The position numbers and the translations under genes were made by a program. Below the pieces are notes generated by a model. That model had not been told where the DNA came from, searched no databases, and saw nothing but the letters and a program-made list of their open reading frames with translations. Positions 9,056-62,467 of a stretch of DNA of 64,000 nt are shown piece by piece. The DNA lies in contig OX442318.1 of assembly GCA_949358305.1 (NCBI GenBank), positions 6,744,501 through 6,808,500 on the forward strand, written 5' to 3'. The DNA is from Strigamia acuminata. Lineage: Eukaryota > Arthropoda > Chilopoda > Geophilomorpha > Linotaeniidae. The stretch's first letter is position 1. Every line of letters starts with the position of its first letter.

Positions 9056-12000
9056 TCATAAGTTATTCAACGCAAATAAAACGTCGTCATCTTCATCGCT
9101 CGCTAACGAAGACAGATCTTCGTCCTCGTCCTCGTCCTCTTCCTCATCTTCCTCGTCTTCATTTTCATCGTCGTCGCCATTGTCGCCATTTTCATCTAAA
9201 ACAAAACAAAACAAACGATTAAAAAGAAAAAATAAATTTCACAATTTTCAATACCATCATTATCGTCGTCGTCGTCGTCATCGTCTTCGTCCTCAGACCC
9301 CAATTCGTCGCCCTCCTCCTCTTCCTCCTCCATTTCGTCCTCCTCGCCTCGTAATCGCCCAACTTCGTACAACCGACAAATACTTTCCACGTTTATCCCG
9401 TCACGCGCCGTCTGATTCTGCAATAAAACCAACCGCCCGTTAAAAAAAAACAACTTAAAAGTAAATTCCGAGTCGATTTACTTCAATTATCGCCAAAAAA
9501 CAGTCCGATTTGTCCGTGCAAAGGTCAAATATATTTTTCCTGATGTCGATTGTGGCAATATTCGAATAATCGGTCGCATCGAACGTCCGGAACGAGGAGC
9601 CGAACGGACTTTTCATTTGCTCCTCCTCCATCTCGACATCGTCCTCGGACGTGTGCATCGCGCCGTAAATCACGTTTCCTTGGTGATTAAAGGTGACTTG
9701 ACACTGATCTAACGCCGGCACGGTGTGTAAAAGGTGAAACGTCCTCAAATCCCACTAGAGAAAGAGGAAAAAACTAAAATTTAACGTAAATTAACGCGTT
9801 TTTCGCTTACAATTTCGGAATTTGCGATAATTTCCAGCCCGTTCGGATGAAAAACACCGTTGATGTGCGGGTTAAATTTGTCAAATTTATGTACAGCGGT
9901 TTGTGAAAGCACGTCCCACAAAACTCCGTCGGATAAAACCAATTCGTCAGTGGGACTGAACGTTGCCCGATTTTTCGTGTAGTTATTCGACCGGTCGGGA
10001 TCTCTCAGTACCATAATTCGCTGCCCCGTTGTTAAATCGTAAATCTAAAAAAATCACAAAACCAAATAAATTTTAAAATTTAAATTCGCGAATTTCAATT
10101 TCGGCGATTTTACGTGAGCAGTTTCCCCTTTGGTTCCGATAATTCGATCCTGAGCGAACCGACTGAATTCCACGTAATGATCTTCCTCAAACGAATGTCT
10201 AAAATCGTCAAAAATAAAATTTAAAAACTCTAAAACTCACAATTTCTTTCCAATTACTTCATCTCAAATGTGCCGTGCAAATTCCACAGCGCTGACAACG
10301 GTCGCCGCCATGATGATGACGTCAGAATTAATCGCCCGTCCTCCATTTTGTAAGAAACGAAAAATTCGTCAAATTTCATTCCTTTTTTCTTTTAAATTTA
10401 ATTAAACATACTTTTGATGGTTCACAATGCGTTAAACCGGAATCGTGACAAAGATAAGTCGCTTCTTCCTGTCCCGAGTATACATTGTATAATTTTAATT
10501 CGCCGGCGTAAGTTCCTAGCGCGATCATTTGATCACACGCCTGGAAATTCGATTCAAAACATTAAATAAGTGGGAAATGAAATTTAAATGTTATTAAATA
10601 TACCGAGAAAGCACCACAAGTGAAGCATCCATCATCTTCGATGTCCCTGTAGACTCTCACGGGCCGAAAACGGCTGAAAATCAACTTGCGGTCCATTTTA
10701 GACCCGTCAACACCCCCGAATGGCGGAAAAAGCTGTTGGAAAATATTGTTTTAAGTTCCATAGTCTTAGTTAATCATTCAATTTAATTTAACTGGTCGCC
10801 GTTGAGCCCTGGCTGTGAAATTCGTCGGTGCACAATTTCGAAATTTAGGATCCGGACATGAATGTGGACTTGAAAAGAAAAAACAAGCAAAAATTTCAAT
10901 TTTATGAAAAAATAATCCCAGTTATGTCAAAATTCAACGTTCAAGATCACCCAACACGAAAATTATTGCCTAAAAATCAGATTTTTAGCACCTTTTGTTT
11001 ATAACTCAACTATCTTCATAAAAATCAATTTTTCTGCATTAAAAATCAATTTTTCTGCATTAAAAATCAATTTTTCTGCATTAAAAATCAATTTTTCTGC
11101 ATTAAAAATCAATTTTTCTGCATTAAAAACCAATTTTTCTGCATTAAAAATCAATTTTTCAGCTCCAAAATGCAATTTTTCAGCTTCAAAATGCAATTTT
11201 TCAGCTCCAAAATGCAATTTTTCAGCTCCAAAATGCAATTTTTCAGCTCCAAAATGCAATTTTTCAGCTCCAAAATGCAATTTTTCAGCTCCAAAATGCA
11301 ATTTTTCAGCTCCAAAATGCAATTTTTCAGCTCCAAAATGCAATTTTTCAGCTCCAAAATGCAATTTTTCAGCTCAAAAATGCAATTTTTCAACTCCAAA
11401 ATGCAGTTTTTATCTTCTCCCAACAAAACATAAAAACAAACAAACAAAAATTCATACACAAACAAATCAAACGGCGGACACGTGATGACCGGATTGCGAC
11501 ACAACGCGTGCTGTTTCCTCAAATACTCCGTCACGATATTATCCAACGTCACCGTCGACCCCGAATTCACCATCACATTCCCAGTCGCCTGCACCAACTG
11601 CTGCCTCTTCATAATCGGACTCTGTTGATACCCGCTTCCAGTTTGACATTTCTCCAACAGCGACGGCCTCAACGACCCCGGCGTCCTTTGCAACGCCCTA
11701 TCGGCACCCGTCAACGGCCTATTACAAGCCAAAGTGACCCTGATGGGCCCCCCGGACGTCGTGCAGGCCCCGATCGACGCCGGAGTGGCGCCGGGAAGCC
11801 GGGAACAACCGGCCGTCGGAGGAACGACCGGAGAGTGCAGCGCCGGCGATGAATGGATGATCCGCGACAGTTTGACGGCCTGCGGGGGTGTGGATATGAG
11901 TCTCGAGGGTGCCGCCGAGGTGCCGATCTTCGGGGGCCCCTTGGGAAGACTGGCCTCGCGTAATAAGACGCCGGCGGACTCCGCGTAGCCGTTGTTCAGA

Positions 12001-15000
12001 AGATGTTGGTGGATGAGTTGCAGCAGTTCTTTGCCGTGGTAGACGATTTTTGTCTGCGCGACCACGTCGGCTTTGTTGATTTTAAAGATGGAAGATTCCA
12101 AACCGGTCGCTAAAGGTTTTCCGGTCACTCTTTCGATGAGTTCCAGGGCGAATTTGCAGAATTTCACGTGTTCGACGCGTTTGTCTTGGAGGACTGGTTC
12201 TTTCATGAGGACTGTGAAGGCAAGTGGTCGTGTTTAGGGTTGGATTTTGGTTTGGTTTTGGGTTTTGGTACCTTGGAGGAGTCCTCTTGTGAATAGCGGG
12301 AGTTTGCTGACGATTTGTTTGACGGTTTCGCAGCGGGCTAGACCCATGAGAGCTTTGCAAGCAAGGGCGCGGATGGAATCGGCGTCTGTGATGGGGGTTT
12401 TGACCATTAGGAGAGAAAGTAAGACCTAGAGGAATGAATGGTTGGAAAATTAATGGTTTTGTTTGGTTTTTTTTATTTTTTTTGTGTGGATTTGTGTTTT
12501 TTGTTTGTGATTTTCAGTTTTTTTTTTATTTTTGGTGTAAGTTTTGTATTTTTGGTTTGAATTTTGTTATTTGTGTGTAAATTTTGAATTGTGGATCTAA
12601 ATTTTGAATTGTGGATCTAAATTTTGAATTGTGGATCTAAATTTTGAATTGTGGATCTAAATTTTTAATTGTGGATCTGAATTTTGAATTTTGGATCTAA
12701 ATTTTGAATTTTGGATCTAAATTTTGAATTGTGGATCTAAATTATGAATTGTAGATCTAAATTTTGAATTGTGGATCTAAATTTTAAGTTCTGATCTAAA
12801 TTTTGAATTCTGGGTCTAAATTATAAATTCTGGATCTAAATTTTGAATTGTGGATCTAAATTTTGAATTGGGGATCTAAATTTTGAATTGTGGATCTAAA
12901 TTTTGAATTGTGGATCTAAATTTTGAATTGTAGATCAAAATTTTGAATTCTGGATCAAAATTTTGAATTCTGGATCAAAATTTTGAATTCTGGACAGGGC
13001 TGGACTGAGAACAAATTTATTGCCGGGAAATCTGGGTGTCCGGGTCACAATTAATGAAGTCGGGACAAGCCACAGCAGGCTGCGACAGGCCACAGCGGCC
13101 ACGGGCCAGTCCAGCACTGATTCTGTATGTAAATTATGAATTCTGGATCTAAATTTTGAATTCTGGATCTAAATTTTGAATTCTGGATCAAAATTTTGAA
13201 TTCTGGATCAAAATTTTGAATTCTGGATCAAAATATTGAATTCTGGATCAAAATGTTGAATTCTGGATCAAAATTTTGAATTCTGGATCAAAATTTTGAA
13301 TTCTGGATCTAAATTTTAAATTCTTTTTATAAATTTTAAATTCTTGGTATAAATTTTCAATTCTTGGTGTAAATTTTCAATTCTTGGTGTAAATTTTCAA
13401 TTCTTAGTGTAAATTTTCAATTCCATGCCTAAGTTTTCAATTTTATGTGAATACATTCCATTTATTGGTGGAATATTCAAGTTTTGGTATTGATATTCAA
13501 GTTTTGTATAAATATTAAAGTTTTAGTAATAAAACTTTCAATTTCTACTCCAAATTCTCAATTCTCAACAACCAAAAAACCTACCATAATCCCATTGTGC
13601 GACTGCACGCAATACCACATCTTCGTCAACAAATCCTCCCCGCTCCTCAACGTAGTCTTCTTCTTCGCACTTCCCCCGACAATCCTCCCAATAGCACCCG
13701 TAAACTAAACCCAAAAAAAAAAAAAAATCAATAACCACAACCAACCACTCCCAAAACCCCAAACCCAACAAACCCTCGCAATCGGTCCACAAACGCAATT
13801 AATGATCACATTCAACGCCGCTCTCTGCACGTCCGGATCCGAAATAATCTCCCCTTCCGCCGCGCCCAACAAAATGCTCATCCCGACCGGATTCGAGTCT
13901 TCCGGCAACCTCACCGGCTCGCACAGCGCCAACTGCGTCTTCGCCATCACCGAACACACCGTCAAAATGTCCAACGCGCTCCGAACGGTCTCCGCTCGCC
14001 CGGAATAATTCCACTCGAGCGTCATCGCGATCAACTGCAGCAAAAGCGTTATTCCCGACAATTCGTGCAATTTATCGACCGGTTCCCACTTCTGACCGAA
14101 CGGCATCAGCGAAACGATGTCCAAATTCTCCTGCACCACTTCCGACGAAAACTTGGACGCCTTGCTCAGGAGCGTCGAGTGGCAATACGTGCCCTGGCTC
14201 CGGTTCTGACTCCGGCGGATCTGTTCGGCCTTTTTCGCCAAATGCGCCTCGTAATAGCGCTTCAGAGCCACGCACACGTGGCGCGCGGTTTGTCTCGACG
14301 CGAACACTTCGTCGTCGCTGAATAGCGCGCCTTGGCCGTCGATCGACAGAACTTCGAGCGTGCTGATCTGGAAAAAACAGTTTTTTTTTTTTAAATAATT
14401 AATTTTCGTCTTTGTTGGCCTTCAATGGCTATTTACAACGTTGAATAGTTTGCGGAGTCCATCTTGCGAGTCAAATAGGTCCAATATCCTTTGGAAATGG
14501 AAGGATAGGCCGAAAAACATCGTTGCGTGACATCTGCCGGATTCGTGGGAACATTCTAGTAACCATAGAGCGTAACTGGAAGATAAAAATTGTTGAATTT
14601 TTGTTAATTTTTTTTTTTTTGGTTTTGTACTTGACAAGTTCGGATAAGACGTAATCTGATAGTAAGCAGACACGTTCCATGGCGTCTTCGCTGTAGGCGA
14701 GGTAATATAAACACATGGAAACACCGGTAGCAGCAATCGAGGGACGATGAACGGCTAATAACTGTTCTAAGCCGTGGACTCCTATAAATTCGACTGCAAA
14801 TTTTTTATGGCATAAAAGAGCTGCTAAATACTGCAAAGCAAAACGTCAATTTTTAACATGGAAAAAATCGTTAAGAAATAATTTTTGATATCAAAAAATC
14901 ATAAAAAATCGACGTTTTATATGGAAAAATCATATAAAATCGATGTTTTATATGGAAAAATCATATAAAATCGATGTTTTATATGGAGAAATCATATAAA

Positions 15001-17790
15001 ATCGATGTTTTATATGGAAAAATCACATAAAATCAATGTTTTATATGGAAAAATCATATAAAATCGATGTTTTATATGGAGAAATCATATAAAATCGATG
15101 TTTTATATGGAAAAATCACATAAAATCAATGTTTTATATGGAAAAATCATATAAAATCGATGTTTTATATGGAGAAATCATATAAAATCGATGTTTTATA
15201 TCTAGAAATCATAAAAAATCAGTGTTTTATATGGAGAAATCCTATAAAATCGATGTTTTATATGGACAAATCACATAAAATCGATGTTTTATATGCACAA
15301 ATCACATAAAATCGATGTTTTATATGGACAAATCATATAAAATCGATGTTTTATATGGAGAAATCATATAAAATCGATGTTTTATATAGAAAAATCATAA
15401 AAAAACGATGTTTTATATTGAGAAATCATATAAAATCGATGTTTTATAAGGAGAAATCATATCAAATCGATGTTTTATATGGAAAAATCATATAAAATCG
15501 ATGTTTTAGATAAAAAAATCATAAAAAATCGATGTTTTATATCGAGAAATCACATAAAATCAATGTTTTATATGGAAAAATCATATAAAATCGATGTTTT
15601 ATATACAAAAATCATATAAAATCGATGTTTTATATACAAAAATCATGGAAAATAGATTTTTTTACGCCTAAAAATCGGAAAACGATTTTTTTACGCCTAA
15701 AATTCCGAAAATCAATTTTAGTACCCCTAAAAAATCAAAAAATTATTTGTTTTTCAATATTTTGATACCAAAAATTATTTTTTCCAACCAAACGTATTTT
15801 TTACTTTTAGTGCCTCAAATGCCAGTCTGACATCACTGTTCGCTTTGAGATTTATAAAATGTAAAATCGACTTCAACGCATTATGCTCAAAAACATAACT
15901 CAAAAGCTAAACAAACAAAAAAAACAATAACATTCCACATTAATTCGCCAAATCCTTCCATTTACCTCCTGATATTCCCCCATCGGAGTCAAATACTGAA
16001 GAATTAACCGCAGCCGCATCTTCTTATTCAACGGATACATCTGAAACGAACCAATAACAAGCGGTTCCATTTCCGCCCAACTGCTGTTACTGTTCTCATT
16101 AAGTCCCGGATGTTGTTTCGGCGATGCTAATGGCGACGGTTTTATTTCACCAAACTTAAACTTAACCTAAAACAAAAATTACAAAACTACAAATTACAAA
16201 AAAATAAAACAAAACAACTCACTTTAGTTTCGTCTCGTTTCCCACTGTCACTGTCCGGTGCATCGCACGCGTCCTCGTTCACCGGAATCTTTAAATTCTC
16301 ACTTGTGGTATTCGATGTCGGGGTCTGGATGCCGTTGAGTTGAGTGTTGATTTCGTCGTTACGCAAATCCCACAATCTTTGCAACATCAAAGGCACTAAG
16401 CGTGAATTTTGTTCTCGAAAATTGCCCGCAATGTCTTGGATTTCCATGGCCGCGGCCAACAGACCCGTGGCGTAAGAACGTAATGGTTCGGGAGAATTTT
16501 CGGCCCATTGGAATAGTCTGGGGACTAAGCCCTCGGTTTCTTGGAATACTACGGATGTTTCGAGGCCCGGCATGACGTCTAGGAGTAGTCGGCATGCGGC
16601 CATGTTTAAGTCGCGACTGTCTCGGTGTAAAACGTAGTTGTTGACGAGCTGGAAAACGATTTCGGTGTTGGTTTGAATTGGGTGAAAATTTTTCAGTGGA
16701 AGTTTTTTGTTTTTTAAATATTTTGTTGATAGAAAGTGATTTTTTTTAGATTGTGATGGAATAAATTATTTTTTGTATTTTAAGATAAAAAATAATTTAC
16801 TTTTTATATTTTCTGTATGAAGAAAATAATTTTTTTATGATTTTTCCACATAAAAATCAATTTTTCATAATTTTTTTGTTTAAAAAATCAGTTTTTCATA
16901 TTTTTTTTGTTTAAAAAAACGATTTTTCATAATTTTTTTGTTTAAAAAATCAATTTTTCATAATTTTTTTGTTTAAAAAAATCAACTTTTCATATTTTTT
17001 TGTTTAAAAAATCAATTTTTTATAACTTTTCCTTTACTTTTTATATTTTCTATGATTTTTCTACATAAAGAAAATAATTTTCTCTGATTTCTCCACATAA
17101 AAATCGATTTTCTATTATTTTTCAGTTAAAAAATCAATTTTTCATGATTTTTCCTGTTAAAAAATCGATTTTCTATAATTTTTTTATATCAAAAAATTGA
17201 CTTTTGAGCAATAAAATTACTTTATTTGTATTTTTTAACCAATAAAATAATTTCCTTAACCACTTAATTAAAAAAAATCGTCTAATTTAGTTACAAAATC
17301 GACATTTCCATCTTAACCATCCATTTCACCCGCAAAATTCAAATTTTCTATATACCTTATTCATAAAATCATCATTTTTAAAAAGCGCTTTCAATAAATG
17401 ACCTAAAGTACATTGTGGATCTGCTCTACCTAAAAAAAAAATTAAAATAAAAAAATAAATAAAAAAACACATAAAATATTCAAAACCCTCAAATAAAAAT
17501 TTAATTCATTATAGACAAATACCCGGATGTCTATCATCAAAAGGGTCCGGATCCATCTTAAGATATGCTTCAGTTTCCTTCTCAACGAGCTCTGCGATTC
17601 TAAATTCAAAAAAAAAAAATGAAAAATATTTTAATAAAACCCCAAAAATATAAAAATAAATAAATAAATATCAAACTCGATCATAAACAAACCGCGATAA
17701 AACCGGTAATGGATCCGCATTTTCTCTCAATCCTTCCTCCCATCTTTGAAGGAGCACTTCTAACTCCGATGTCGAGTTTAAACTCGCCAT
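9056..17790 (-). CDS. DCAF1: DCAF1 (VprBP), CRL4 ubiquitin ligase substrate receptor
   Basis: Twenty-one minus-strand exons: 17693-17790, 17523-17599, 17356-17429, 16223-16648, 15966-16166, 15805-15906, 14631-14830, 14437-14575, 13774-14367, 13585-13704, 12272-12425, 11458-12211, 10793-10868, 10604-10732, 10412-10540, 10258-10340, 10114-10198, 9811-10044, 9482-9754, 9255-9417, 9056-9195. The sum is 4251 nt, 1416 aa (human about 1507). Seen in order: an armadillo-like N-terminal half with the [11 protein letters not shown] segment, a LisH motif in exon 12, a WD40 propeller in exons 14-19, and an Asp/Glu-rich tail. In this family the protein links DDB1-CUL4 to substrates in the nucleus. One of the paired WDxR DDB1-contact motifs is kept (WDLR); the preceding one reads WDVL. 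The exon at 10258-10340 has a weak acceptor. Several introns hold tandem arrays. Confidence 0.96.
11020..11410. repeat. two abutting 21-bp tandem arrays, DCAF1 intron
   Basis: About six units built on GCATTAAAAATCAATTTTTC give way at about 11155 to about twelve units built on GCTCCAAAATGCAATTTTTC. Both have a 21-bp period and can be aligned to each other. Each unit has an A-tract and a T-tract about 9-10 bp apart. Confidence 0.92.
12560..13400. repeat. 20-bp tandem array, DCAF1 intron, split by a MITE
   Basis: The unit is ATTTTGAATTGTGGATCTAA with drift (TGTGG to TCTGG, TCTAA to TCAAA) over about forty copies. The array is interrupted at 12995-13119 by a short hAT-like MITE, so it predates that insertion. 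Confidence 0.92.
12995..13119. mobile_element. short hAT-like MITE, family CAGGGCTGGACTG, copy 1
   Basis: Ends CAGGGCTGGACTG and CCAGTCCAGCACTG are inverted. The flanking octamers ATTCTGGA and ATTCTGTA match at 7 of 8. Related copies lie at 32378-32510 and about 59830-60008. All three share a block reading GGGAAATCTGG or its complement. Confidence 0.82.
14890..15655. repeat. 31-bp palindromic tandem array, DCAF1 intron
   Basis: About 24 units of 31 bp. Each carries CATATAAAA, then TCGATG, then TTTTATATG, a near-perfect 24-bp palindrome, followed by GAAAAAT. A- and T-tracts are about 10 bp apart across the whole array. Confidence 0.92.
16750..17210. repeat. degenerate ~31-bp A/T-tract array, DCAF1 intron
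   Basis: Loose copies of an ATTTTTTTGTTTAAAAAATC-like unit followed by AATTTTTCAT. Spacing varies and the edges are unclear. Confidence 0.65.
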
Positions 17791-18698: not shown

Positions 18699-21600
18699 AT
18701 GCTTAGACGTCGTGGTTGGTTCGGTGGAGGGTTGTGGAAGCCGAAAAATCCCCATTCGTTGGATCATTTAAAGTGAGTTAAAATGTGTGCAAATCAATTT
18801 GGACATTTAATCGATACAATTTCCTCTCGTTGTTCGTTCTATTTTAGATATTTGTACAATTTGCTGGCCAGAAACCAGGTCGTGACGGAGCAGAATAAGA
18901 GTTTATTGGTCGAAACACTCAGGTCCATTGCAGAGATTTTAATCTGGGGCGATCAAAATGACAGCACAGTTTTCGAGTACGATGCTAAACAGCTGATATT
19001 TCTCAATGTGTTTCTGTGTTGTTTTCACGTGTTCTTGTTTTGATGCCAAACTGCTGGCTTTCTTTTGTTTTCTTTAAATATTTGTTGATGTTTTTTGGTG
19101 TTTTAATGTTGTTTCGATGCGAGACACATTTTTTGAGGTTTTTGGATGCTCTTTGGCGATTTTATTTATAATTTTTGACGATGTTTGACGTTTTATAGAT
19201 GGTTTTTTGTTATTTTTTGACGTTTTTTACATTTTTTGACGTTTTTGAAGTTTCAGAACGCTTATAGTGACTATTTTTGAAGATGTTTGACATTTTTGAC
19301 GTTGTTTAACGACTGTTTTTGACGTTTTAGACGTTTTTAGTGATTATTTTTAACGGTTTTTGACGTTTTTTAGTGTTTTTTAATTATTTTTGACGTTTTT
19401 GAAAATTGTGCAGTTTTTAAAGAAATTTTGACGATTTTTAAATGTTTTTGACGTTTTTAAATTTTTTTTGACGTTTGTTAAATATTATTTATGTTTTTTT
19501 TTGACGTTTTTTAAATTTCTTAAAATTGCTATGACGATTTTTGACTTTCTTTCAAATTTTTGACGTTTTGTTGAAATTATTTTTCGTGTTTTTCTTTGTT
19601 TTTGGTGTTTATCTTGACTGAATTTTTATAGGTGATGTTGCAATGGTTAATTTCTTTTTCCTTTTTTAGTTTTTTCCTGGAGAAGAACATGTTATCGTTT
19701 TTCCTCAAAATTATGAGACAAAAATGCGGGAGTTACGTTTGCGTGCAATTACTTCAAACGCTCAACATTTTATTTGAAAATATCCGAAATGAAACATCAT
19801 TATGTAATGGACTACATTTAATGTTACACAAACATACTGATAAAACAATAATTATTTTTTTTTTTAGATTATTTGTTGTCCAATAATCACGTGAATTACA
19901 TAATCGTACACAAGTTTGATTTCTCCGATGAAGAAGTAATGGCGTATTACATTTCATTTCTCAAGACACTATCATTTAAGCTAAACGCTCATACCATTCA
20001 TTTTTTTTACAACGAAGTAAGCAAACACAAAATTTAGTTTGCCAGGTGTCTTGTATTTGCGGGATTGTCACGAAATAGGCAAATATCAGACAATTTATTC
20101 TGACAAATGAATTTATTAGGCTACAAATTGAATTTTTTCTTAAAAAAATGATATAATATAATTTTTTAGACAAAATTGATTTTTTAGACACAAAAGATAA
20201 TTTTTTAGACATAAAATTGAAAATAATTGATTTTTTAGACATAAAATTGAAAATAATTGATTTTTTAGACCAAAAAATTGATTTTTTTAGACCAAAAAAT
20301 TGATTTTTTTAGACACAAAAATTGATTTTTTTAGACACAAAAATTGATTTTTTTAGACACAAAAATTGATTTTTTTAGACAGAAAATTGAATTTTTTGGT
20401 AAAAAATTGAAAATAATTAATTTTTTAGACAGAAAATTGAATTTTTTGGTAAAAAATTGAAAATAATTAATTTTTTAAATCCAAAAATTAATTTTTTTAT
20501 ACTTAAAATTGATTTTTTAGACAAAATTGATTTTTTGACATAAAATTGATTTTTTAGACACAAAAATTGATTTTTTAGACATAAAATTGATTTTTTAGAC
20601 ACAAAAATTGATTTTTTTTAGACACAAAATTGAATTTTTTGGTAAAAAATTGAAAATAATTAATTTTTTAGACACAAAAATTGATTTTTATACATAAAAT
20701 TTATTTTTATACACAAAAATTGATTTTCTAGACATAAAATTGATTTTTTTTTAGACATAAAATTGATTTCTTAACGTTAAAAATAAAATTTTAAATTTAT
20801 TTACGCTAAAATACGACACCTGGCAGCCCTACAGGAAAAACTCCAATATTTCTTACAAAAACAACCATTTTTTAAACCTTTGTTTCAGCACACGCACGAT
20901 TTTCCACTCTACACCGAAGCCATAAAATTCTTCAATCATTACGAAAGCATGGTTCGCATCGCTGTTCGCACACTCACGCTCAATGTATACAGAGGTAAAA
21001 ATCCGAAACCCCTCACCAAAAAATAAAATTAAAAAAATGATCATTCTAATGTTTTAGTAATAACTTTTGCAGTTGAAGACAGATCAATGTTGAAATTCAT
21101 CCGCGACAAAACCGCAGCTCCATATTTCTCCAATTTAGTTTGGTTCATTGGTAATCACGTGCTGGAATTAGATTTGTGCGTTAGAAACGATGCCGAGTAC
21201 GTATAAAACAATGGATTACCAAAAAATGTAAAAAAAATTAAATTTGGAAAGTGTTAATTTCAGCCACCAGAGCAGAAACCGTCTCTCTGATCTCGTAGCT
21301 GAGCATTTAGATCATTTGCATTATCTGAACGACATCTTATGCCTGCAAATAGACTCGTTAAATGACGTATTAACCGATCACTTTCTTAATCGTTTGCTCA
21401 TTCCACTCTACGTTTACTCGTTAACCAAGAGGCGTCGTCACTCGCAAGTTGAGGTAAATAAATTCCGAACAGAAAAATCCAAATTGATCGAATAATGACG
21501 TCATAATTCGCTTTTTAGGACGATAAACCTCACGTGAGCTCGGTTGTGTCACTGTTTCTCTTGTCCCAGGTGAAATACCACATTTTTTGCTTTTAAATTG

Positions 21601-24600
21601 TGTTAATTTTTGTTAATTTGTGTTGATTTTTGTTGATTTTTGTTGATTTTTGTCGATTTTTGTCGATTTTTGTCGATTTTTGTCGATTTTTGTCGATTTT
21701 TGTCGATTTTTGTCGATTTTTGTCGATTTTTGTCGATTTTTGTTAATTTTTATTACTTTTTGCTAATTTTTGTCGACTTTTGTTAATTTTTGTTAATTTT
21801 TGTTAATTTTTGTCGATTTTTGGTACTTTTTGTTAATTTTTGTCGACTTTTGTTAATTTTTTGTTAATTTTTGTTGATTTTTGTTGATTTTTGTCGATTT
21901 TTGTCGATTTTTGTTACTTTTTGTTAATTTTTGTCGACTTTTGTTAATTTTTTGTTAATTTTTGTTGATTTTTGTTAATTTTTGTTAATTTTTGTTGATT
22001 TTTGTTGATTTTTGTTAATTTTTTCAGGTTTTTTTAATCATATCGCACGTGCCTCTCGTTCGTCAATTGGCCGACATAATTCTTAATCGAGACATGGGAA
22101 TTTTCTCTGAACAATTTCGTCGTCGACTTTTGCTTCCTGTAGTAAACAAGAAAAAATTTTTCTTTGGATTTTTCAAAATTTTTTTTAAATTTTTTGTTTT
22201 TTTTAAATTTTTTGTTTAGGGGTCTCATTCGTTTCGTCCGGGGTTCATCGCGCCGCACGAAACGCTGGAGAAATCGCTCGAGCACCGGATGCCTCGTTCG
22301 GTAGCGTCTCTGTACGGAATAAAATCAAAGGAAGATTCGTCATCACCTTCGATTCCTTCGTCACATTCTGCTGAAGAATCCATATCTGCAATCGCAGAGC
22401 CTTTAACAGAAGTTCCAGAATCATCGCTCGAAGACGAATGTTTCCAAGCACCCGTTGGTAATAAATTGCACACAATAAAACCATTTAATAATTTAAATTT
22501 TTGATGCAAAAATGCATTTTTAGATGCAAAAATGCATTTTTAGATGCAAAAATGCATTTTTTAGATGCAAAAATGCACTTTTTAGATGCGAAAATACACT
22601 TTTAGACGCAAAAATGCATTTTTAGACTCAAAAGATGCATCTTTTAGATACAAAAATGCATTTTTTAGATGCAAAAATGCACTTTTAAACGCAAAAATGC
22701 ACTTTTAAACGCAAAAATGCACTTTTAAATACAAAAATATATTTTTAGATGCCCAAATGGACATTGGTTATAATTATACGATTTCTCGTTTTCACGCAGA
22801 GGAATTACCGAAAGATATAAACATAACGGACGAGGAAAAACAAAAACATGTAAAAACAAATCACCGCATTCTTCCAGCTGAAAATCAGTGCAATAGCCAG
22901 AGATTGAATGATGAGTTCTCTCTACTTAATCGGTAAATCCTAACCTCCAAAATCAATTCAAACCACCCAACTAACCACTATTTCTCACAAACACAGTCCG
23001 TATTTAGAGGCAACTTTTAACGCCCTCGAAGTCTCGGAGAACGATTACGCCGCTCTTTTCTCCGTCTGTTTACTCTACGCTTTGGGAAACAATCCAGGTA
23101 AGCCTAAATCACTAAATAAGCCTAAAGTACATTACACGATGCACTTTTTCCCCCCTCTGCCACTTATTACGCCGATTATCAAGACGGTAAACTCGATAAT
23201 TCGTTTTAAATCTACTATTTGTACAATTTTAGCTTTAATTTAATTTTTTCCACGTTTTAGGAATCGACCAAGAGCTCTTAGACTCTGTTCTCATTCCCAC
23301 AAACCGTTCGGAAGTGAGTTAGCGGCCATTTTGTTGATATTTTTAAAATGTTTTATTTTTTGATTTATTTTCAGACAAAACATTGGTATAACGTGAATCT
23401 CGTTGATCGATTGGTTAAAATAATATCTAGCAGCTGTCAATACAGTAATTATTGAGTTTTTCGTTCATTTTAATGTTTTTTATTTGTTTTTTATTTATTT
23501 TGTAGATAGTAAAGTGCGCTTAGCGACGTTGGACATGAGTATTTTACTCCTGAAAAACTTAGTCATTAAAAATGGAGTGAGTTGTCTTCAAGATCGTCAT
23601 CTGGCGGCCGTGGAAGGCGCTCGGGAAGAGAGTACATTGTTATTAAGGAATTTTTATAAAGTAAAAATTTGTTTGTTTTTTTAAATAAAAGGAATTAATC
23701 TTTTTTTTTTTTTTTTTTGGAAGAGCGAAGAGATTTTTCTCGATATGTTCGAAGACGAGCATCGCGAATTGAAGAAGCGGGTGCTGAACGTGGAGTATTT
23801 GATGATGGATTCGAATTTATTGTTACCTCCGACCGGAACTCCACTCACGGGAATCGATTTTTACAAAAGGCTTCCGTGCGGTGAAGTGGAGCGCGCAAGA
23901 CGAGTTTAGTACCGAAAATGGGTCGAAAATGAATGAATTTCGCTTATTTCAATTAAATTTAGCCGAAAAAATCAATAAAATTCGCTTAAATTGATTAAAT
24001 TTAGCCGAAAAATCAATAAAATTCGCTTAAATTGATTAAATTTAGCCGAAAAATCAATAAAATTCGCTTAAATTCATTAAATTTAGCCGAAAAATCAATA
24101 AAGTTGGTTTAAATTGATTAAATTTAGCCGAAAAATCAATAAAGTTGGCTTAAATTGATTAAATTTAGCCGAAAAAATCAATAAAATTCGCCTAAATTGA
24201 TTAAATTTAGCCAATAAATGAATGAAATTCGCTGAAATTGATTAAATTTAGCCGAAAAATCAATAAAATTCGCTTAAATTCATTAAATTTAGCCGAAAAA
24301 TCAATAAAGTTGGTTTAAATTGGTTAAATTTAGCCGAAAAATCAATAAAGTTGGCTTAAATTGATTAAATTTAGCCGAAAAAATCAATAAAATTCGCCTA
24401 AATTTCGCCTAAATGAATGAAATTCGCTGAAATTGATTAAATTTAGCCGAAAAATCCATAAAATTAGCTTAAATTAATTTAACTCAGCCGATAAATGAAT
24501 GAAATCCGCTTATGTTAATCCAATTTAGCCGAAAAATCAATAAAATTCGCTTAAATTGATTAAATTTAGCCGAAAAATCAATAAAATTCGCTTAAATTTA

Positions 24601-27148
24601 CTAAATTTAACCGAAAAATCAATTAAATTCGCTTAAATTCATTAAATTTAGCCGAAAAATTAATAAAGTTGGCTTAAATTGATTAAATTTAGCCGAAAAA
24701 TTTAATAAAATTCGCCTAAATTGATTAAATTTAGCTTAAAAATGAATGAAATTTGCTGAAATTTATTAAATTTAGCCCAAAAATGAATGAAATTCGCTGA
24801 AATTGATTAAATTTAGCCAAAAAATCAATAAAATTAGCTTAAATTAATTTAACTTAGCCGATAAATGAATGAAATCCGCTTATATTAATCCAATTTAGTC
24901 GATAAATCAATTAAAATTCGTTATATTTATTAAATTTAGCAACAAAACGTATTTATTAATCCATTTTTTAATTTTTTTTTAGACGATTCGCGTTTTCTTC
25001 TTGTTGCGGGATTTGTCGCTGACGTTGCGAATGGAACAGGAAAATCAGCTGCCATTGACTAATCCGCAGGCGTGCATTCATATCGGCGATGTGCTCGACT
25101 TAAGTGCGTTTTCCGAAAAAAAAAAAAATTAAATGAAACAAAATTGAATCTTTATAATAAATTTTACTTTTCTATCTCAAGCAGATAACAGCGATTTGAT
25201 TGCATGCACCGTGATTAGCAAAGATAGTCAGAAAATCCGTCGATTCCTCGTTATCGATGTCATTCAACTCGTTCTCGTGGAACCTGATACGAAAAGACTC
25301 GGCTGGGGAATTGCGAAATTCGTCGGTTTTCTTCAAGTAATTTAAAAATTAAAAAAAAAAAAAAAAAATTAATTTAAAATAATTTTTTCTAAGGATGTGG
25401 AAGTAATTGGAGATAAAGATGACAGTCGTTGCTTGCACGTGACCATTCTACGCCCCCTATCGTCGGCAAATGCGAATCGCGTGCCCCTTTTGTCGGCAAA
25501 ATTCGTTTTTGATGATCACATTCGATGCATGGCGGCAAAACAAAGGCAAAATAAAATATTTTATTTTATTTTTTAAATTTATTTTTGTTTTAAATTGTAG
25601 GTTGACGAAAGGTCGATTGAAGGCGCGTCAAAGGAAAATGCATTTGATAGCTCGGTTGCTGGAGTTGCCGGGGAACATTCAGCCGTGTCCGTCGCCGCCC
25701 GCACACGCGATTCGTTCGTTGCGCCATCTGGATGGCAGTCCAAGTGGGTTTGAGGGTTTAATTTTGTTGGATTTTGGTTTTATTTGTTTTTAAATTGATT
25801 AGGGCGGTCTATGATGCCGAGAAGTCAGTCGCACGAACAAGGGATGAGGATTAGAGCACCCGGGTCGTTGGCAGCCGGTCATTATAAACCGATGTTTACG
25901 AGTGGACATAAAGTTCCGGGGTTTGCTGCGGCAATGCGGAGGGAAGATGCGAGAGGAACGAGAGGTAGAATTAATGAGTTTTTGTTTGGTTTGATTTTTT
26001 TTGGGGAGTCTAAGTTTTTTTTGTGATGAAATTTGGATTTGTTAAATTTATTTAGAAAATAAATGTGAGATTTTTTGATTTTTTTGAAAGGGAATTAAAA
26101 TTTTTGAATTTCTTGAGAAAAAATTGAATTTTTTTAAATTTTTTTAGACAAAAAATGAATTTTTTTGAATTTCTTTATACAAAAATTGAATTTTTTTGAA
26201 ATTTTGGAGCAAAAATTGAATTTTTTTGAAATTTTGGAGCAAAAATCCAAATTTTGGAGCAAAAATCCAAATTTTGGAGCAAAAATCCAAATTTTGGAGC
26301 AAAAATCCAAATTTTGGAGCAAAAATCCAAATTTTGGAGCAAAAATCCAAATTTTGGAGCAAAAATCCAAATTTTGGAGCAAAAATCCAAATTTTGGAGC
26401 AAAAATCCAAATTTTGGAGCAAAAATCCAAATTTTGGAGCAAAAATCCAAATTTTGGAGCAAAAATCCAAATTTTGGAGCAAAAATCCAAATTTTGGAAC
26501 AAAAAAATCAAAATTTTTTAGCAAAAATCAAAATTTTTGAGCAAAAATCAAAATTTTGGACCAAAAAATAAAAATTTTGGAACAAAAAAATCGAAATTTT
26601 GAGCAAAAATCCAATTTTGGAGCAAAAATCCAATTTTGGAGAGCAAAAATCCAAATTTTTAAAGCAAAAATCCAAATTTTGGAGCAAAAATCCAAATTTT
26701 GGAGCAAAAATCCAAATTTTGGAGCAAAATTCCAAATTTTGAAGCAAAAAATCAAATTTTGGAGCAAAAAATCAAATTTTGGAGCAAAAAATCCAAATTT
26801 TGGAGAGCAAAAATCCAAATTTTGGAGAGCAAAAATCCAAATTTTGGAGAGCAAAAATCCAAATTTTGGACCAAAAATCCAAATCTTTGGGCAAAAAATT
26901 AAATGTTATACTTCATTTCAATTATAAACACCAAAACTTAAACAAAAATAAAATTCCAGATCCATCAGACCGCGAAAGACGTCAAAGTCTAAGTCCCAGC
27001 GGTAGCGGTAGACAGCATAGATCGCGCGAAGGAAGTCCCAATTCAAAATCCGGCGAGGAAATCCCCTTAGAAAACATGTCTCAAGAGCGTTCGTCTCGCA
27101 CTGGTCATCAACGGAAAAGTGCTCCCGACTTACCCGCAGTAAAAAAAA

Positions 27149-27184
<36 letters not shown>

Positions 27185-37191: not shown

Positions 37192-46669
<9,478 letters not shown>

Positions 46670-47153: not shown

Positions 47154-51645
<4,492 letters not shown>

Positions 51646-52674
51646 AGTGGTATTTTAAAAATCATTTCCAGTCGATTAATTGAATGGAAAAATATTTTTT
51701 TATTTATTATTCTTGCTTATTTGAATTTGTTTTATTTTGTTTTGTTTTTTATATTTATTTTGAGTGTGGATCTGGTGAAAAATATATATATCTAGTCAAC
51801 TTTCATATATATATATATACCGGTATATATATTATATATTATACACAATATAATGTAAATTTTTGCATTATTCTTTTTTTAAATGATGACACATTATGTA
51901 CCAATTTGTCATGTTAATGCCAAATACTAGCGGTATATGTAGAATCGTTAAATGTCTCTTGGTGAATTCTAGTCCGATTAAAAATCCTATTATCTAAAAA
52001 GAAATGTCTGTGGAATTGTCCATGCAGGCGAGCCAAGCACCTATTATCAATAAGTTGCAAAACATGCATTTTTATTGTCAATAAGTTACAAAATATGCAT
52101 TTTTATTGTCAATAAGTTGCAAAATATGCATTTTTATTGTCAATAAGTTGCAAAATATGCATTTTTATTGTCAATAAGTTGCAAAATATGCATTTTTATT
52201 GTCAATAAGTTGCAAAATATGCATTTTTATTGTCAATAAGTTGCAAAATATGCATTTTTATTGTCAATAAGTTGCAAAATATGCATTTTTATTGTCAATA
52301 AGTTGCAAAATATGCATTTTTATTGTCAATAAGTTGCAAAATATGCATTTTTATTGTCAATAAGTTGCAAAATATGCATTTTTATTGTCAATAAGTTGCA
52401 AAATATGCATTTTTATTATCAATAAGTTGCAAAATATGCATTTTTATTGTCAATAAGTTGCAAAATATGCATTTTTAGCAAAATAAATGCATCTTGTAGT
52501 AAAAATGCATTTTGTTTTTACAATAGAAATGTAACAAGTTGCAAAAATGCATATTTTAGTCAATAAATTTGGAAAAAATACATTTTTGTGACAAAATAAA
52601 TGCAACAAGTATCCAAAATAATTCTTTTCTTCACAAGATGTGTTTGTACATAAAATTTAATTTCTCAATTTGTT
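51646..52674. other. convergent spacer between ICA1 and the cysteine-rich gene
   Basis: No gene supported. It contains AT-dinucleotide-rich sequence (51780-51860) and a 31-bp array (52050-52485), then degenerate ATGCATTTTT words to about 52620. Confidence 0.6.
52050..52485. repeat. 31-bp tandem array, intergenic
   Basis: About fourteen nearly identical units of 31 bp containing GCAAAATATGCATTTTTATT and GTCAATAAGTT. One of the two clearly intergenic arrays. Confidence 0.95.
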
Positions 52675-54765: not shown

Positions 54766-57700
54766 ATGGTAAGTGCGCGACTCCCAACCGTCCATTGACC
54801 TAAACCTTTATTTTCGTAAATAAACTAAAGAAAATTAAATTTCTTTGTTCGGATTTAATTATTTAATTATTTTATTATTTTATTCTCAACTCCAGACTTC
54901 ATTGCAAATTTTATCAAATTGCTATCACGGGAAAGTGGAATTTGAACAAATAAAATCCGAAGAAAATGGATGCGAACCCGATAGTACCCGATGTCACCAC
55001 AACCCGGAATCGAGCGCTTATCTCTCGCTAATCCAACGGATTAACCAACATATTGACACCGGAGAAAAATTCTTCTCCCTCGAATTTTTTCCGCCGAGAA
55101 CCAACGGCGGAGCGGTTAATTTACTTACCCGGTGTGCCAGAAAATATTTTTAAAATTTTTTTAAATTTAAAATTTTTATTTATATAATTTATGTTTTATT
55201 TATTTTTTAGGTTGAATCGTATGCGAGTTGGTGGACCCCTGTTTTGTGACATAACATGGCATCCAGCGGGGAATCCCGGTGGGGACTCGGAGACGAGTTC
55301 GATCACGATCGCGAGTGCGGCGTTGAATTATTGCGGGCTGGAAACCATGTTGCATTTGACGTGTGTCAATCAAACGAAAAACGAGATTCATATGCATTTG
55401 ACGCGAGCAAAGGAGTTGGGGATTCGAAATATTTTGGCGTTGAGGGGCGATTTACCCAAGAACGGGCGGTGGACGCCGGGGAATTGCGGCTTCTTTTACG
55501 CTTTGGATTTGGTCAAGTTCATTCGCAAGGAGTTTGGCAATTATTTTGTCATTTGTGTCGCGGGTAAAATTTATTTTTACATTTTTTTAAATTATTTTAT
55601 TTTATTTTAATTTTTTGCAGTTTTTAATTTATTTTTTTCGATTTTTTTCAAATTTCTTTTCGATTTTTTCCAATTTTTTTTTTATTTTTTTTATTTTTCA
55701 GCGATTTTTTCGATTTTCTTTCGAATTTTTCGATTTTTGTTCGATTTTTCCGATTTTTTGTTGATTTGATATTAATTTTTTAATTTTAATTCTAATTTTG
55801 GCAGGATATCCGACCGGGCACCCGGATGCAGCATCTTACATCGAAGATTTAGAGCATTTGAAAGAGAAAGTGGATGCTGGTGCTGATTTCATTATTTCAC
55901 AAATGTTTTTTAAAGCTAATCGCTTCGCGCAGTTCGTCAGCGATTGTCGTCACATCGGTATACAAGTTCCAATTATCCCTGGCATCATGCCAATTCAGGT
56001 ATAAATTCGAGAATCTATTTAATCACTGTGTCAATAGATAATCTCTTTGTGTTTTGCAAACAACTGAATTCCCGAAATAATTCAAAATAACACCGCAATA
56101 ATCAACCTTCGATCATGCAAAATGATCAAAGCTCAAAATCGCATTTTAAAGCTCTAAATTGCATTCTGAAGCTCAAAATTGCACATTTAAACCCCAAAAA
56201 TTTCAGTTTTTATGCATAAAATTGCGGTTTTTAGCTCAAAATTACACATTTTAACCCCAAAATTACAATTTTTATGCATAAAATTGCAGATTTTAGCTCA
56301 AAATTGCAGATTTTAGCTCAAAATTGCAGATTTTAGCTCAAAATTGCAGATTTTAGCTCAAAATTGCAGATTTTAGCTCAAAATTGCAGATTTTAGCTCA
56401 AAATTGCAGATTTTAGCTCAAACTTGCAGATTTTAGCTCAAAATTGAAGATTTTAGCTCAAAATTGCACTTTTAGACCCCAAAATTACAATTTTATGCAT
56501 AAATTTGCACTTTAAACCCAAAAATTACAATTTTATGCATAAAATTACAATTTTAAACTCCAAAATTGCAGACTTTATGCATAAAATTACAATTTTAAAC
56601 TCCAAAATTACAAACTTTATGCATAAAATTGTACTTTTTTCGCTCAAAATGCCGAAAAAACCGCCCAGTTTGTTAGCAAAACGCAAATCCTGTGTAAAAT
56701 TCTAAAAAAAAATAATGCAAAAAATTGAATCTAGGGTTCCGATTCCTTGCGTCAAATCGTGAAACTAGCCAAACTCGAAGTCCCCAAAGAAATAATCGAC
56801 GATCTGACCATGCTCAAGGACAACAACGAAGACATTCGAAACTACGGCATCGAACACGCGGTCAATTTGATCAGCGAGTTATTCGACCTCGGAATAGCGC
56901 CGGGCGTTCACATCTACACCCTGAACCGCGAAGTCGCCGCCACCACCGTCCTCGAACGCCTCGGTCTCTGGTGCAAGGAGCCCTACCGCCCGTTGCCATG
57001 GAAACTGGCCGCCAACTACAAACGATGTCGCGAAGACGTGCGCCCCATATTCTGGTCGGCGAGGCCCGAGAGTTACATTTACCGCACCAGACACTGGGAC
57101 GAATTCCCGAACGGGCGTTGGGGCGATTCGGAGTCCCCCGCGTTCGGGGAGCTCAAGGATTATTATTTATTCTTTATGGCCAATCACAGCACGGAGAAGG
57201 AACGCCTGCAAATGTGGGGCGAGGAATTGACGTGCGAGCAAGACGTGTGGGATGTTTTTCATTCGTATATATCGGGGGAATGCAACAAAAATGGCGTCAA
57301 AGTAAAGAAATGATTGTTTTTGATGTTTTTGGTTGTTTATTTGCTTTTGTTTTGGTTTGTAGGTCACCACGACGGCGTGGAATGTGGAGGAATTGAGTGC
57401 CGAGACTTATTTGTTGCAGAATAAGTTGAGCACGGTGAATAAGCGAGGCGCGCTCACTATTAATTCGCAGCCGAATGTGAATGGGATTTCGTCGACTGAT
57501 AGCGTGCTAGGATGGGGATTTCCTGGTGGTTATGTTTATCAAAAAGTAAATTGTGGTTTGTGGATTATGTTTGTGTTTAAATATGCATTTTTTATGCAAT
57601 TTTATTTTTTTTTCGTCTAAATTATGCATTTTTTGTGTGAATTTTTGTGTAAATTATGCATTTTTGATGCAAATAATGGAGTATTTCATCTAAATTATGT

Positions 57701-58750
57701 TTTTTTGATGCAAATAATGGAGTTTTCATCTAAATTATGCATTTTTGATGCAAATAATGGAGTATTTCATCTAGATTATGCATTTTTGATGCAAATAATG
57801 GAGTATTTCATCTAAATTATGCATTTTTTGGATGAAAATGATTGCAATTTTTTTATTTACCATAAATGAAAAATGCTTAATTTAGTTGCAAAAATGCATA
57901 ATTTGGTTGCAAAAATGCATAATTTGGTTGCAAAAATGCATAATTTGGTTGCAAAAATGCATCATTTGGATGAAAAATGCATAATTTGGTTGCAAAAATG
58001 CATAATTTGGATGAAAAATACATAATTTAGATGAAAAAACATTTTTTTGGCTAAACAATATATTATTTCATCTAAAATGCTCATCACTTTGCTTCAAATT
58101 CCGAAACTTAACCTACTCAATAATGAATTTCACTTACTTACATGCAATTTTGTTTATTCTCTATCACTTCAATCTAGGCTTACCTAGAGTTTTTTGCGTG
58201 CAAACAATACGTGACTGCCTTACGACAGATTCTTCCCAAATACAGCGAAGTTAATTACCACATCATCAACAGCAGTGTAAGCGAATTCAGTGAAAAAAAT
58301 AAAATCTGAACAAAATTTAATTTATTTTCATTCTAGGGCGACGAAAACTACACAAATTGCCACAAACACAAACCAGTCGCAGTTACGTGGGGCGTTTTCC
58401 CCGGCAAAGAGATCATCCAACCCACTGTCGTTGATCCAGTCAGTTTCAAAGCGTGGAAGGTAAAATAAATCAAATAAAACAAGCAATTGTTGCCTAGCAA
58501 CGACGCCATCTTGTTTGTCTTCCCGCAGGACGAAGCCTTCGCGTTGTGGAAGGAACAATGGGGCAAATTGTACGACGACAACTCGCAATCGAGAAAAATT
58601 ATTAATCACATCCACGATACTTACTGCTTAGTCAATTTGGTCGACAACGACTATCCCAAGGAGAGTTGTTTGTGGAATATTCTAGAAGAGATGTTTGAGC
58701 TGTCGAGCGGACATGTTGTCACTGCTATCACTAACGACGAATTTATCTGA
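54766..58750 (+). CDS. MTHFR: MTHFR, methylenetetrahydrofolate reductase
   Basis: Nine exons: 54766-54768, 54896-55131, 55211-55563, 55805-55998, 56735-57301, 57363-57545, 58178-58276, 58337-58459, 58529-58750. The sum is 1980 nt, 659 aa (human 656). The first coding exon is just the ATG, with GTAAGT directly after it. Seen: [11 protein letters not shown] at the start of the catalytic TIM barrel, the folate/FAD-binding segments [22 protein letters not shown] and [10 protein letters not shown], then the C-terminal regulatory domain ([38 protein letters not shown]). It reduces 5,10-methylene-THF to 5-methyl-THF with NADPH and FAD, feeding methionine synthesis. The C-terminal domain binds S-adenosylmethionine as a feedback inhibitor. 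Introns 4 and 6 hold arrays. Confidence 0.97.
56150..56640. repeat. 20-bp array, MTHFR intron 4
   Basis: Core of about ten units of GATTTTAGCTCAAAATTGCA, flanked by related longer units with ATGCATAAAATTGC. Tract centres are exactly 10 bp apart. Confidence 0.9.
57555..58050. repeat. ATGCATTTTT-type array, MTHFR intron 6
   Basis: About four copies of a unit of roughly 50 bp (TTATGCATTTTTGATGCAAA then TAATGGAGTATTTCATC), followed by about six 20-bp copies of TGCATAATTTGGTTGCAAAA. Confidence 0.85.
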
Positions 58751-59055
58751 TACAATCGGATAAAATCGGATAAAATGGTCCAAATTTTGATTTTTTAATC
58801 GTGTGGAAATGTAATTTAAGAAACTTGTTTTATTTAAAAAAAAAATGATTTTCTTATTTGACAGAAATAAATATTATTTTACAGACTTTATTTTCAAGCA
58901 TTGCCACTAGATGGCGAATGACATCCACTTTTTTAAAGTTTATTTCTCTACAGAAACCTTAAAAACAGTTTTATTGACTGAAAATAACCCCAAATTTATT
59001 GTTTTATTTAGAGATATGCGTACATGAGTATGTTGTTTTTAATTTTTATTCGTTT
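58751..59055. other. convergent MTHFR/GALK2 3' spacer
   Basis: 305 bp between two stop codons. Candidate poly(A) signals occur on the plus strand (AATAAA at about 58866). No gene seen. Confidence 0.6.
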
Positions 59056-61205: not shown

Positions 61206-62467
61206 TATTGTAGGGATTTTATCTGTTTGAGTGAATAAAATGGTAATAATATGTTGATGAAAGTGGTTACAAGGAAGAACGATATTATTATACTTGATAT
61301 TGTTCAGGCGGTGGCTGTTGAGGCGTCTGTTCCAGATAACGTGTGGTTGTTGCTCCCTCTGTTGGCAAAACACGTAAATACGTGTGACAAAGCGAAGTGT
61401 CAAAGTAGCCTTCCGCTTTTTTAGGCAAAAATTAAGGCATTTTTAAGCAAAATTTAAGGCATTTTTAGGCAAAATTTAAGGCATTTTTAGGCAAAATTTA
61501 AGGCATTTTTAGGCAAAATTTAAGGCATTTTTAGGCAAAATTTAAGGCATTTTTAGGCAAAATTTAAGGCATTTTTAGGCAAAATTTAAGGCATTTTTAG
61601 GCAAAATTTAAGGCATTTTTAGGCAAAATTTAAGGCATTTTTAGGCAAAATTTAAGGCATTTTTAGGCAAAATTTGAGGCAATTTTTAAACAAAAATGGA
61701 GACAATTTTTAGACAAAAATGAAGGCATTTTTTAAAAATATATTTTTTGGGTCAGAAAATGCTCTTTTGATCCAAAACATGCTTTCATACATATACCAGA
61801 AATATACCCATATACCCAAAATAACCCAACTCTAATAAATGCTCTATTATTTGTTTATTTTCCAACTCCAAAATCTAAAGTGTTTATGTATAAACACGCA
61901 AGAGATTGCATCTCACTTGACGGAAAAAGCGAACCCCTAACCGTGGGTTGATTCGGCTTCTGGGCAAGACCCTCTGTTGTCAGAGAGCCTCCAAACGTTG
62001 ATGTGAAAATTATTAGCACAAAAAATTCAAACACAAAACAATATGAAAGAATAGAAACACAGCAGTGTGTATACAAGCAAAAGACAGGAAAATTTAGAAA
62101 TGTTTACAAAGATGAAAATTTTCAAATAAATAATACTGTAGAAATTTGAACTTTAGAAAGTTTTTATTTTTTTAATAATTAAAGTGAAAATCTTCTTATT
62201 TGTATCACTGCAGCTGTACAGTTGCGACTGTAATAATTCATCCGAAATGGTTTGGGAACGAGCTGTATAATTAAACTGAGGTTTTACCTTTTCCATTAAC
62301 GTGTTAACAGTCAAGAACACTTGCGTGCAATTCCTAATGTATTTTTAATAATGTAACAGCTATCATTTTGTTTTAGGTAATTTTGCTCGAGAAAACTCAT
62401 TTTCTACGTTCATTAGCTTTGCTCTCCAATTGGTTCGATTCAACGCACGTGCGATGTTCCTCGATCC
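61206..62467. other. divergent spacer between GALK2 and the knottin gene
   Basis: Holds a 22-bp array (61430-61740) and AT-rich sequence. The stretch 61900-62000 is somewhat GC-richer but has no recognisable RNA or protein gene. The GALK2 promoter should lie near 61206-61420. Confidence 0.5.
61430..61740. repeat. 22-bp tandem array upstream of GALK2
   Basis: About twelve near-identical units, AGGCAAAATTTAAGGCATTT plus TT. The right edge drifts. Intergenic, within the GALK2 5' flank. Confidence 0.93.

Follow-up and report, generated by a model that had tools for sequence, protein, structure and literature searches.

The window analysed here is a 64-kb stretch of contig C6, from an assembly of 237.5 Mb in 157 contigs, and it carries a series of tandem arrays of short units lying in and around the DCAF1, CLEC16A, IFT56, ULK4, ICA1, MTHFR and galactokinase genes. 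Tandem Repeats Finder (TRF) yields 135 rows in the window and, once overlaps are removed, arrays with a unit of at least 8 bp and at least three copies cover about 12.2 kb of the 64 kb. An earlier note on this DNA had placed the arrays in introns of housekeeping genes. For MTHFR, ICA1 and CLEC16A this placement stands, with exons recognised by Pfam on both sides of the arrays, while for DCAF1, IFT56 and ULK4 it leans on open reading frames picked by eye with weak or partial Pfam matches. The housekeeping label suits the few genes examined, namely those of the window and a TBP gene in another locus, L011.

The same note had claimed that A-tracts and T-tracts within the arrays are spaced about 10 bp apart, and a period analysis bears this out. 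AA/TT periods were scanned from 4.5 to 45 bp, with 20 dinucleotide shuffles per array as control. All seven arrays cited for the claim peak at 10.00-10.34 bp (top periods 10.00, 10.04, 10.14, 10.06, 10.30, 10.28 and 10.34 bp), far above every shuffle; the TRF unit of one of them, 42661-43945, is AAAAATTCAATTTTGTTGCA. Within the 9.4-11.4 bp band, 16 of the 17 other window arrays (at least 150 bp and at least three copies) exceed all 20 of their shuffles, as do 52 of 57 arrays of at least 100 bp with units of at least 15 bp, over which the median period is 10.26 bp (quartiles 10.07 and 10.34). The whole-unit peak, at about 20 or 21 bp, outweighs the helical peak in three arrays (12578-12994, 13120-13423 and the GC-rich 33792-34623). 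Arrays elsewhere in the genome behave alike: in 19 other 10-kb stretches, from contigs C1, C3, C5, C8 and C11, they take up 10,626 of 190,000 bp (5.6%), phased only in part.

Table 1. Arrays and one array-free phased stretch of the window. Rows carry no strand, and those for arrays are based on TRF; arrays span about 0.1-1.3 kb. Periods are AA/TT periods in bp; rank refers to unit shuffles.
Positions	Feature	Gene context	Phasing or basis
11021..11411	21-bp unit A/T-phased array, 18.7 copies	DCAF1 region	peak 10.50, power 89 vs shuffle maximum 10
12578..12994	20-bp unit array		weak 10-bp phasing, 20-bp period dominant
13120..13423	20-bp unit array		weak 10-bp phasing, 20-bp period dominant
14894..15662	31-bp unit phased array, 24.8 copies		period 10.34, power 204
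16852..17197	31/93-bp unit array		17045-17183 part: rank 0.005
19172..19499	10/20/40-bp T-rich phased array		tested on 19324-19498
20158..20769	20-22 bp array	CLEC16A intron, flanked by Pfam FPL ~19774-20026 and ~20838-20990	
21601..22023	10-bp unit array, 42 copies	flanked by CLEC16A_C ~21271-21441 and ~23712-23906	period 10.06
22497..22759	20/83-bp phased array	flanked by CLEC16A_C ~21271-21441 and ~23712-23906	period 10.30, rank 0.005
23926..24940	41-bp unit array (206-bp higher order)	flanked by CLEC16A_C ~23712-23906 and ~25184-25555	period 10.28
26101..26897	20/30-bp phased array		26229-26897 tested, period 10.14
33792..34623	GC-rich 21-bp minisatellite, 39.6 copies, 97% matches	IFT56 region	A/T tracts absent, not specifically A/T-phased
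35913..36098	21-bp unit phased array		period 10.48
37830..37990	phased A/T stretch without detected repetition	exon end, ULK4 region	power 15.8; self-similarity no higher than in tract-keeping shuffles
38001..38188	30/61-bp array	ULK4 region	TRF only
39222..39496	31/93-bp phased array	ULK4 region	period 10.32
39896..40353	40/180-bp array	ULK4 region	TRF only
41150..41571	two 21-bp unit arrays	ULK4 region	41150-41426: period 10.50
42662..43956	20-bp unit array, 64.8 copies		period 10.00, power 193
44604..45144	20-bp unit phased array		period 10.04
45654..46150	mixed 20/31/41-bp array		in phase at 10.30
47302..47520	41/81-bp array	upstream of first Arfaptin exon of ICA1	TRF only
48258..48722	41/83-bp array	ICA1 intron, flanked by Arfaptin exons ~47750-47878 and ~48767-48976	period 10.30
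49456..50080	T/G-rich array	past ICA69-domain exon of ICA1; right-hand exon by eye	49954-50078: rank 0.025
50933..51522	31- and 20-bp arrays		TRF, unit shuffle and period scan
52042..52477	31-bp unit phased array, 14 copies		period 10.34
56130..56650	20-bp unit array	MTHFR intron; Pfam stretches end ~56037 and start ~56729	period 10.14 on 56150-56640
57650..58039	41- and 21-bp arrays	MTHFR intron, flanked by MTHFR_C ~57354-57554 and ~58502-58702	
61418..61732	22-bp unit array	near 5' end of galactokinase gene	period 11.04

It is highly improbable that these peaks are a by-product of composition and tandem repetition, in which case any A+T-rich unit of about 20 bp would give them. The gene-body arrays are indeed 74% A+T, but the helical signal resides inside the units and in their lengths. 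Over 64 arrays, AA/TT power within units reaches 5.12 at the helical harmonic, compared with 1.49 once the units are shuffled and 0.78 at other harmonics, so the peak is not the mere tandem repetition of random AT-rich units that the earlier note had named as the test. Ranked among 200 shuffles of its own unit, 58 of the 64 arrays fall in the upper half and 26 in the top 5%. Unit length, too, is quantised, at roughly n x 10.3 bp (best period 10.4 bp), a feature that the earlier note did not contain. At 10.4 bp, 39 window arrays give a Rayleigh R of 0.79 and 45 arrays sampled from 16 stretches one of 0.76 (one array >110 bp having been dropped from each set), values that none of 2000 sets of unit lengths jittered by up to 5 bp reached in either case. 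Among arrays with units of 15-110 bp, 29 of 33 in the window and 29 of 38 in the sample have a unit length no more than 1.5 bp away from a multiple of 10.3 bp, where a fraction of about 0.29 is expected; the commonest units are of 20-21 and 30-31 bp, plus 41 and 62. Short repeats at 6695-7029, GC-rich and built on ATCGCGCG-like cores, have periods of 15-16, 31 and 47 bp, of which those of 15-16 and 47 bp do not fit the helical ladder.

The arrangement of the tracts is equally regular, their centres mostly alternating A, T, A at 10-bp spacing. In the window and the 16 stretches, A-to-T and T-to-A distances peak at 10 and 30 bp, and like-to-like distances (A-A, T-T) at 20 and 40 bp, with further peaks at 31 and, smaller, 10 bp. 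Genome-wide, A4N6T4N6A4N6T4, which has 10-bp steps, is found 23,626 times on one strand and its 8-bp-step version 217 times, while a three-tract version counted on both strands occurs 88,622 times with 10-bp steps vs 9,843 times with 15-bp steps. On the strength of the unit shuffles, the unit-length quantisation, these control spacings and a peak in array-free DNA described below, we reject a composition or tandem-repeat artefact. Among A-to-T spacers, the most frequent motif, TGCA, is present in only 5 of 68 arrays, and therefore no shared binding motif is claimed.

The phasing had been described as taking the form of locus-specific minisatellites. This is where it is strongest, but weaker phasing also exists outside arrays. 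When every TRF match of score at least 30 is masked and padded, the remaining array-free DNA (2028 windows of 150 bp) peaks narrowly at 10.2-10.3 bp, exceeding shuffles by a factor of 1.35. A power of at least 10 is attained in 20 of 2647 overlapping array-free windows of 120 bp, compared with 2 after shuffling and, at the control periods of 7.5 and 13.4 bp, 1 and 3 respectively. The 20 windows collapse to 17 separate stretches, a few of which will be due to chance since about two windows are expected. Hidden repetition was assessed in 14 of the 17 (leaving out L016:5741, L010:4521 and L022:1811) and in one stretch of power 9.8, using shuffles with the tracts held in place. Thirteen of these 15 display no self-similarity beyond phase. 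L022:2040-2300 does, in that 0 of 100 tract-keeping shuffles score as high; L011:7461-7760, the array-free stretch with the strongest phasing, is a marginal case, 9 of 100 such shuffles scoring as high. Phasing without tandem sequence repetition is a defining trait of the periodic An/Tn clusters (PATCs) of Caenorhabditis. Here the strongest phasing is tandem, and 14 of the 15 stretches are without significant self-similarity, counting the marginal one. Lag contrasts measured within the window are 0.039 for array-free non-coding DNA of gene bodies, 0.032 for exons and 0.019 for the rest.

As for position, arrays make up 10,411 of the 32,751 bp of non-coding DNA in gene bodies and 1,762 of the 21,495 bp outside the gene spans as drawn; no array falls in the coding set, partly by construction. 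The gap at 2077-3306, between two UGT-like open frames, has no TRF row, unlike most long gene-body gaps of the window. Locus L011 (contig C1, 10.0 Mb) contains TBP-domain exons, two of which flank a strongly phased stretch, and its opposite strand encodes a GOST domain. A- and T-tracts at about 10 bp over long stretches are intronic in MTHFR, ICA1, CLEC16A and the TBP gene of L011. TBP core-domain exons are seen at three places in this locus, in the regions 2340-3304 and 8863-9048, which suggests two adjacent TBP-like genes. The array-rich L010 has a glycosyltransferase domain and, apart from a weak match to CENP-B_dimeris, nothing else; the array-free, GC-rich L032 and L016 have pol domains of long terminal repeat retrotransposons (plus strand scanned). 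The 42662-43956 array has DNA matches elsewhere in the genome at 67-84% identity (40 of 312 candidates scored).

Such DNA was predicted to be curved, and modelling agrees. With wedge values after Bolshoy and others, the net predicted bend is 147 degrees per 100 bp in arrays vs 48 when shuffled, compared with 45 vs 40 for array-free gene-body DNA and 37 vs 36 for exons. The helical repeat of free DNA is 10.5 bp, and that of nucleosomal DNA is shorter. The AA/TT period lies in the range of nucleosomal A/T-dinucleotide (WW) periodicity (~10.2-10.4 bp), being 10.2-10.3 bp in array-free DNA and a median of 10.26 bp in arrays. Both values are closer to the nucleosomal helical repeat than to 10.5 bp, the period of some 21-bp arrays.

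The reading we favour, at even odds (a probability of about 0.5), is that this is PATC-like DNA that sets the rotation of nucleosomes in transcribed introns and has been amplified as phase-preserving minisatellites. It draws on the quantised lengths and internal phasing of the units, on the genome-wide tract counts, on an array-free peak whose strength rises with array coverage from locus to locus, on the low divergence of tracts, on the predicted bend, on the concentration of arrays in non-coding DNA of gene bodies, and on the finding of cellular-gene domains in two array-rich loci and retrotransposon domains in two array-free ones. Period and position both suit a rotational setting of nucleosomes. 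The starting point is transcribed non-coding DNA in which, as observed, A- and T-tracts alternate with centres about 10.3 bp apart, a phasing that is computed to curve the DNA strongly. Curved and phased in this way, the DNA would be wrapped into nucleosomes with one preferred rotational setting. Tandem duplication would then act under a putative phase constraint, leaving the observed units of 1, 2, 3, 4, 6 and more turns, because only whole-turn duplications preserve phase. The likely outcome would be a regular curved nucleosome array in gene bodies, with intron chromatin held in a defined state, an effect that may be comparable in action to that of Caenorhabditis PATCs. A germline anti-silencing output of the arrays is possible.

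A neutral expansion bias would produce the same ladder if slippage or break repair copied curved or nucleosome-wrapped AT-rich DNA mostly by whole turns, with no benefit; phasing outside arrays would then be that of decayed arrays. We regard these two propositions, taken jointly, as a serious possibility, albeit one that we hold to be somewhat doubtful. They fit well with the concentration of phasing in tandem arrays, with the tolerance of introns to insertions, with the self-similarity beyond phase of L022:2040-2300 and, marginally, of L011:7461-7760, and with the correlation across 20 loci between array coverage and array-free phasing strength (Spearman 0.61, p 0.004), which is what decay would be expected to leave. 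They fit less well with the distances between identical 6-mers and 8-mers in array-free DNA, which exhibit no preference for 10.3 bp (R 0.013 and 0.016; shuffled 0.057 and 0.040). Plain microhomology seeding in ordinary DNA therefore yields no quantised units, and we discarded it as their source. Nor is decay easily reconciled with the 13 array-free stretches lacking repetition beyond phase, whereas simulated decaying arrays have lost nearly all strong windows once unit-lag identity is down to about 0.33. In addition, the tracts are the least diverged part of the arrays: between-copy divergence inside 37 arrays is 0.033 for A/T in tracts, 0.052 for other A/T and 0.104 for G/C, the first being lower than the second in 27 of 33 paired arrays (p 2e-4). 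Together, the tract divergence, the decay simulation and the unbiased k-mer spacing suggest that phase is under constraint.

Several points weigh against the nucleosome-setting reading. Lower tract divergence could be a mutational context effect, and a mutational bias within already phased DNA may also account for all three of the results that point to constraint. The helical peak is absent from the AA/TT period scan of array 30390-30610; the 61418-61732 array, peaking at 11.04 bp, is off the common phase; and 33792-34623 also counts among the off-phase or unphased arrays, with a unit-length class that is that of the A/T-phased 21-bp arrays. Unit lengths that miss the ladder occur in 4 of the 33 arrays from the window and in 9 of the 38 from the sample. 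Array-free introns of the window are phased weakly, barely above exons (0.039 vs 0.032). L011:7461-7760 may be an old array because its self-similarity of 29 beats the maximum of 25 in 200 plain shuffles and its identity at lag 82 is 0.44, where simulated decaying arrays still hold some phase. Finally, we ourselves placed the gene spans, and the limits of many exons, around the arrays, with the UGT and SOCS genes left out, and L010, L011, L032 and L016 were picked as extremes for the scan of gene and transposon content.

The suspicion that the host is not a nematode proved correct. Contig C1 opens with TTAGG repeats, and (TTAGG)5 gives 18,915 overlapping matches genome-wide on both strands, while the genome has no TTAGGG run of four and TTAGGC at one internal place only. 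Chitin_bind_4, typical of arthropod cuticle proteins, has 54 matches, all above the family cut-off, and 0 in 14 control genomes; clusters of it lie at 5.45-5.64 Mb on C12, 4.47-4.49 Mb on C11 and 9.65-9.68 Mb on C4. The nematode TTR-52 family has 0 matches in the genome, but the control genomes likewise have 0, which leaves this absence without weight. In the mitochondrial contig C157 (L029, L035; 15,068 bp, read with table 5), where protein genes were named by eye from translations, one strand carries COX1-3, ND2, ND3, ND6, CYTB and ATP6, and the opposite strand ND1, ND4, ND5, probably ND4L, and the large rRNA. Such a gene split is the arthropod mitochondrial strand partition. The order is rearranged, with COX1, COX2, COX3, ND6 and ND2 consecutive and ATP6 far from COX2 and COX3. 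The TTAGG end, the lone TTAGGC place, Chitin_bind_4 and the mitochondrial partition rule out a nematode host, and hence Caenorhabditis or a relative. That the pattern stems from an assembly artefact or from contaminating nematode DNA is scarcely credible in view of these telomere-type repeats, of arrays lying between exons of conserved genes within a multi-megabase contig, and of the recurrence of the pattern in sampled stretches of several contigs.

How far does the likeness to PATCs extend? In C. elegans, PATCs make up 6-10% of the genome according to PMC7725773, which together with PMC9071541 describes their anatomy. The DNA described here shares with Caenorhabditis PATCs the clusters of A- and T-tracts, the steps of about 10 bp, the intronic location, lengths of hundreds of bp and a share of several percent of the genome. 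It differs in its arthropod-like host and in consisting mostly of locus-specific minisatellites with units in helical turns, and the likeness is judged by anatomy, not by the published PATC score. Because host and tandem organisation differ, it is outside the nematode PATC class as defined; it is PATC-like in build and plausibly in action. A narrow counterpart of the PATC role, in which phased introns would label genes as self and shield them from piRNA-type or heterochromatic germline silencing, strikes us as unlikely. The matching anatomy of A- and T-tract clusters at 10 bp within introns would agree with it, as would phasing that accompanies cellular-gene domains, with none in the two transposon-bearing loci scanned, and PATC introns block germline silencing in C. 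elegans (PMC7725773). However, ICA1, ULK4 and IFT56 are not obviously germline genes, and PATCs are, according to PMC6468775, largely absent beyond the Caenorhabditis group. We put forward tentatively, and with considerable reserve, that an arthropod may have independently evolved a PATC equivalent, intronic phased A/T DNA that would mark cellular genes against transposons, its phase selected and renewed by whole-turn minisatellite expansion.

Other known systems resemble this DNA in part. A/T tracts can curve insect pericentric satellites (PMC8122249). Those satellites are pericentric, whereas the short arrays seen here are many and distinct and lie one by one within the introns of ordinary genes, and the window arrays, about 0.1-1.3 kb long and in genes, do not form large centromeric or pericentric heterochromatin blocks. 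A dispersed repeat with a similar A/T core does lie near one end of contig C1 (~26-110 kb), where an A4-T4-A4 core at 10-bp steps is often spaced by about 122 bp or a multiple among the matches listed. In worm, fly and zebrafish, ubiquitous and germline promoters carry a 10-bp WW periodicity at their +1 nucleosomes (PMC7706728), which shows that a 10-bp signal is present in animals beyond nematodes. The A/T-dinucleotide period, there tied to nucleosome position, is the same, but here it is intronic and tandemly amplified, and the strengths are not on one scale. In the excerpt of PMC3152781 available, Daphnia, Drosophila and Apis have six dominant tandem-repeat classes, of 1-5, 10, 11, 12 and 17 bp, with no such length ladder. 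That excerpt also gives minisatellites with 10-50 bp units in these arthropods, as here, 10- and 20-bp classes being notable in Daphnia coding sequence and units longer than 8 bp much rarer in Daphnia introns than elsewhere; here, units of 20-21 and 30-31 bp are commonest, and within the window arrays are densest in the non-coding DNA of gene bodies. Among titles and the opening parts of abstracts, a scope outside which most subscription papers fall, we recognised no report of helically quantised intronic minisatellites in arthropods.

A strong PATC counterpart in an arthropod-like animal would make the purpose of such DNA comparable across lineages. The quantised units offer a clean test case for whether the birth or survival of minisatellites follows the DNA helix, as length variants that keep the phase and those that break it can be counted in populations.

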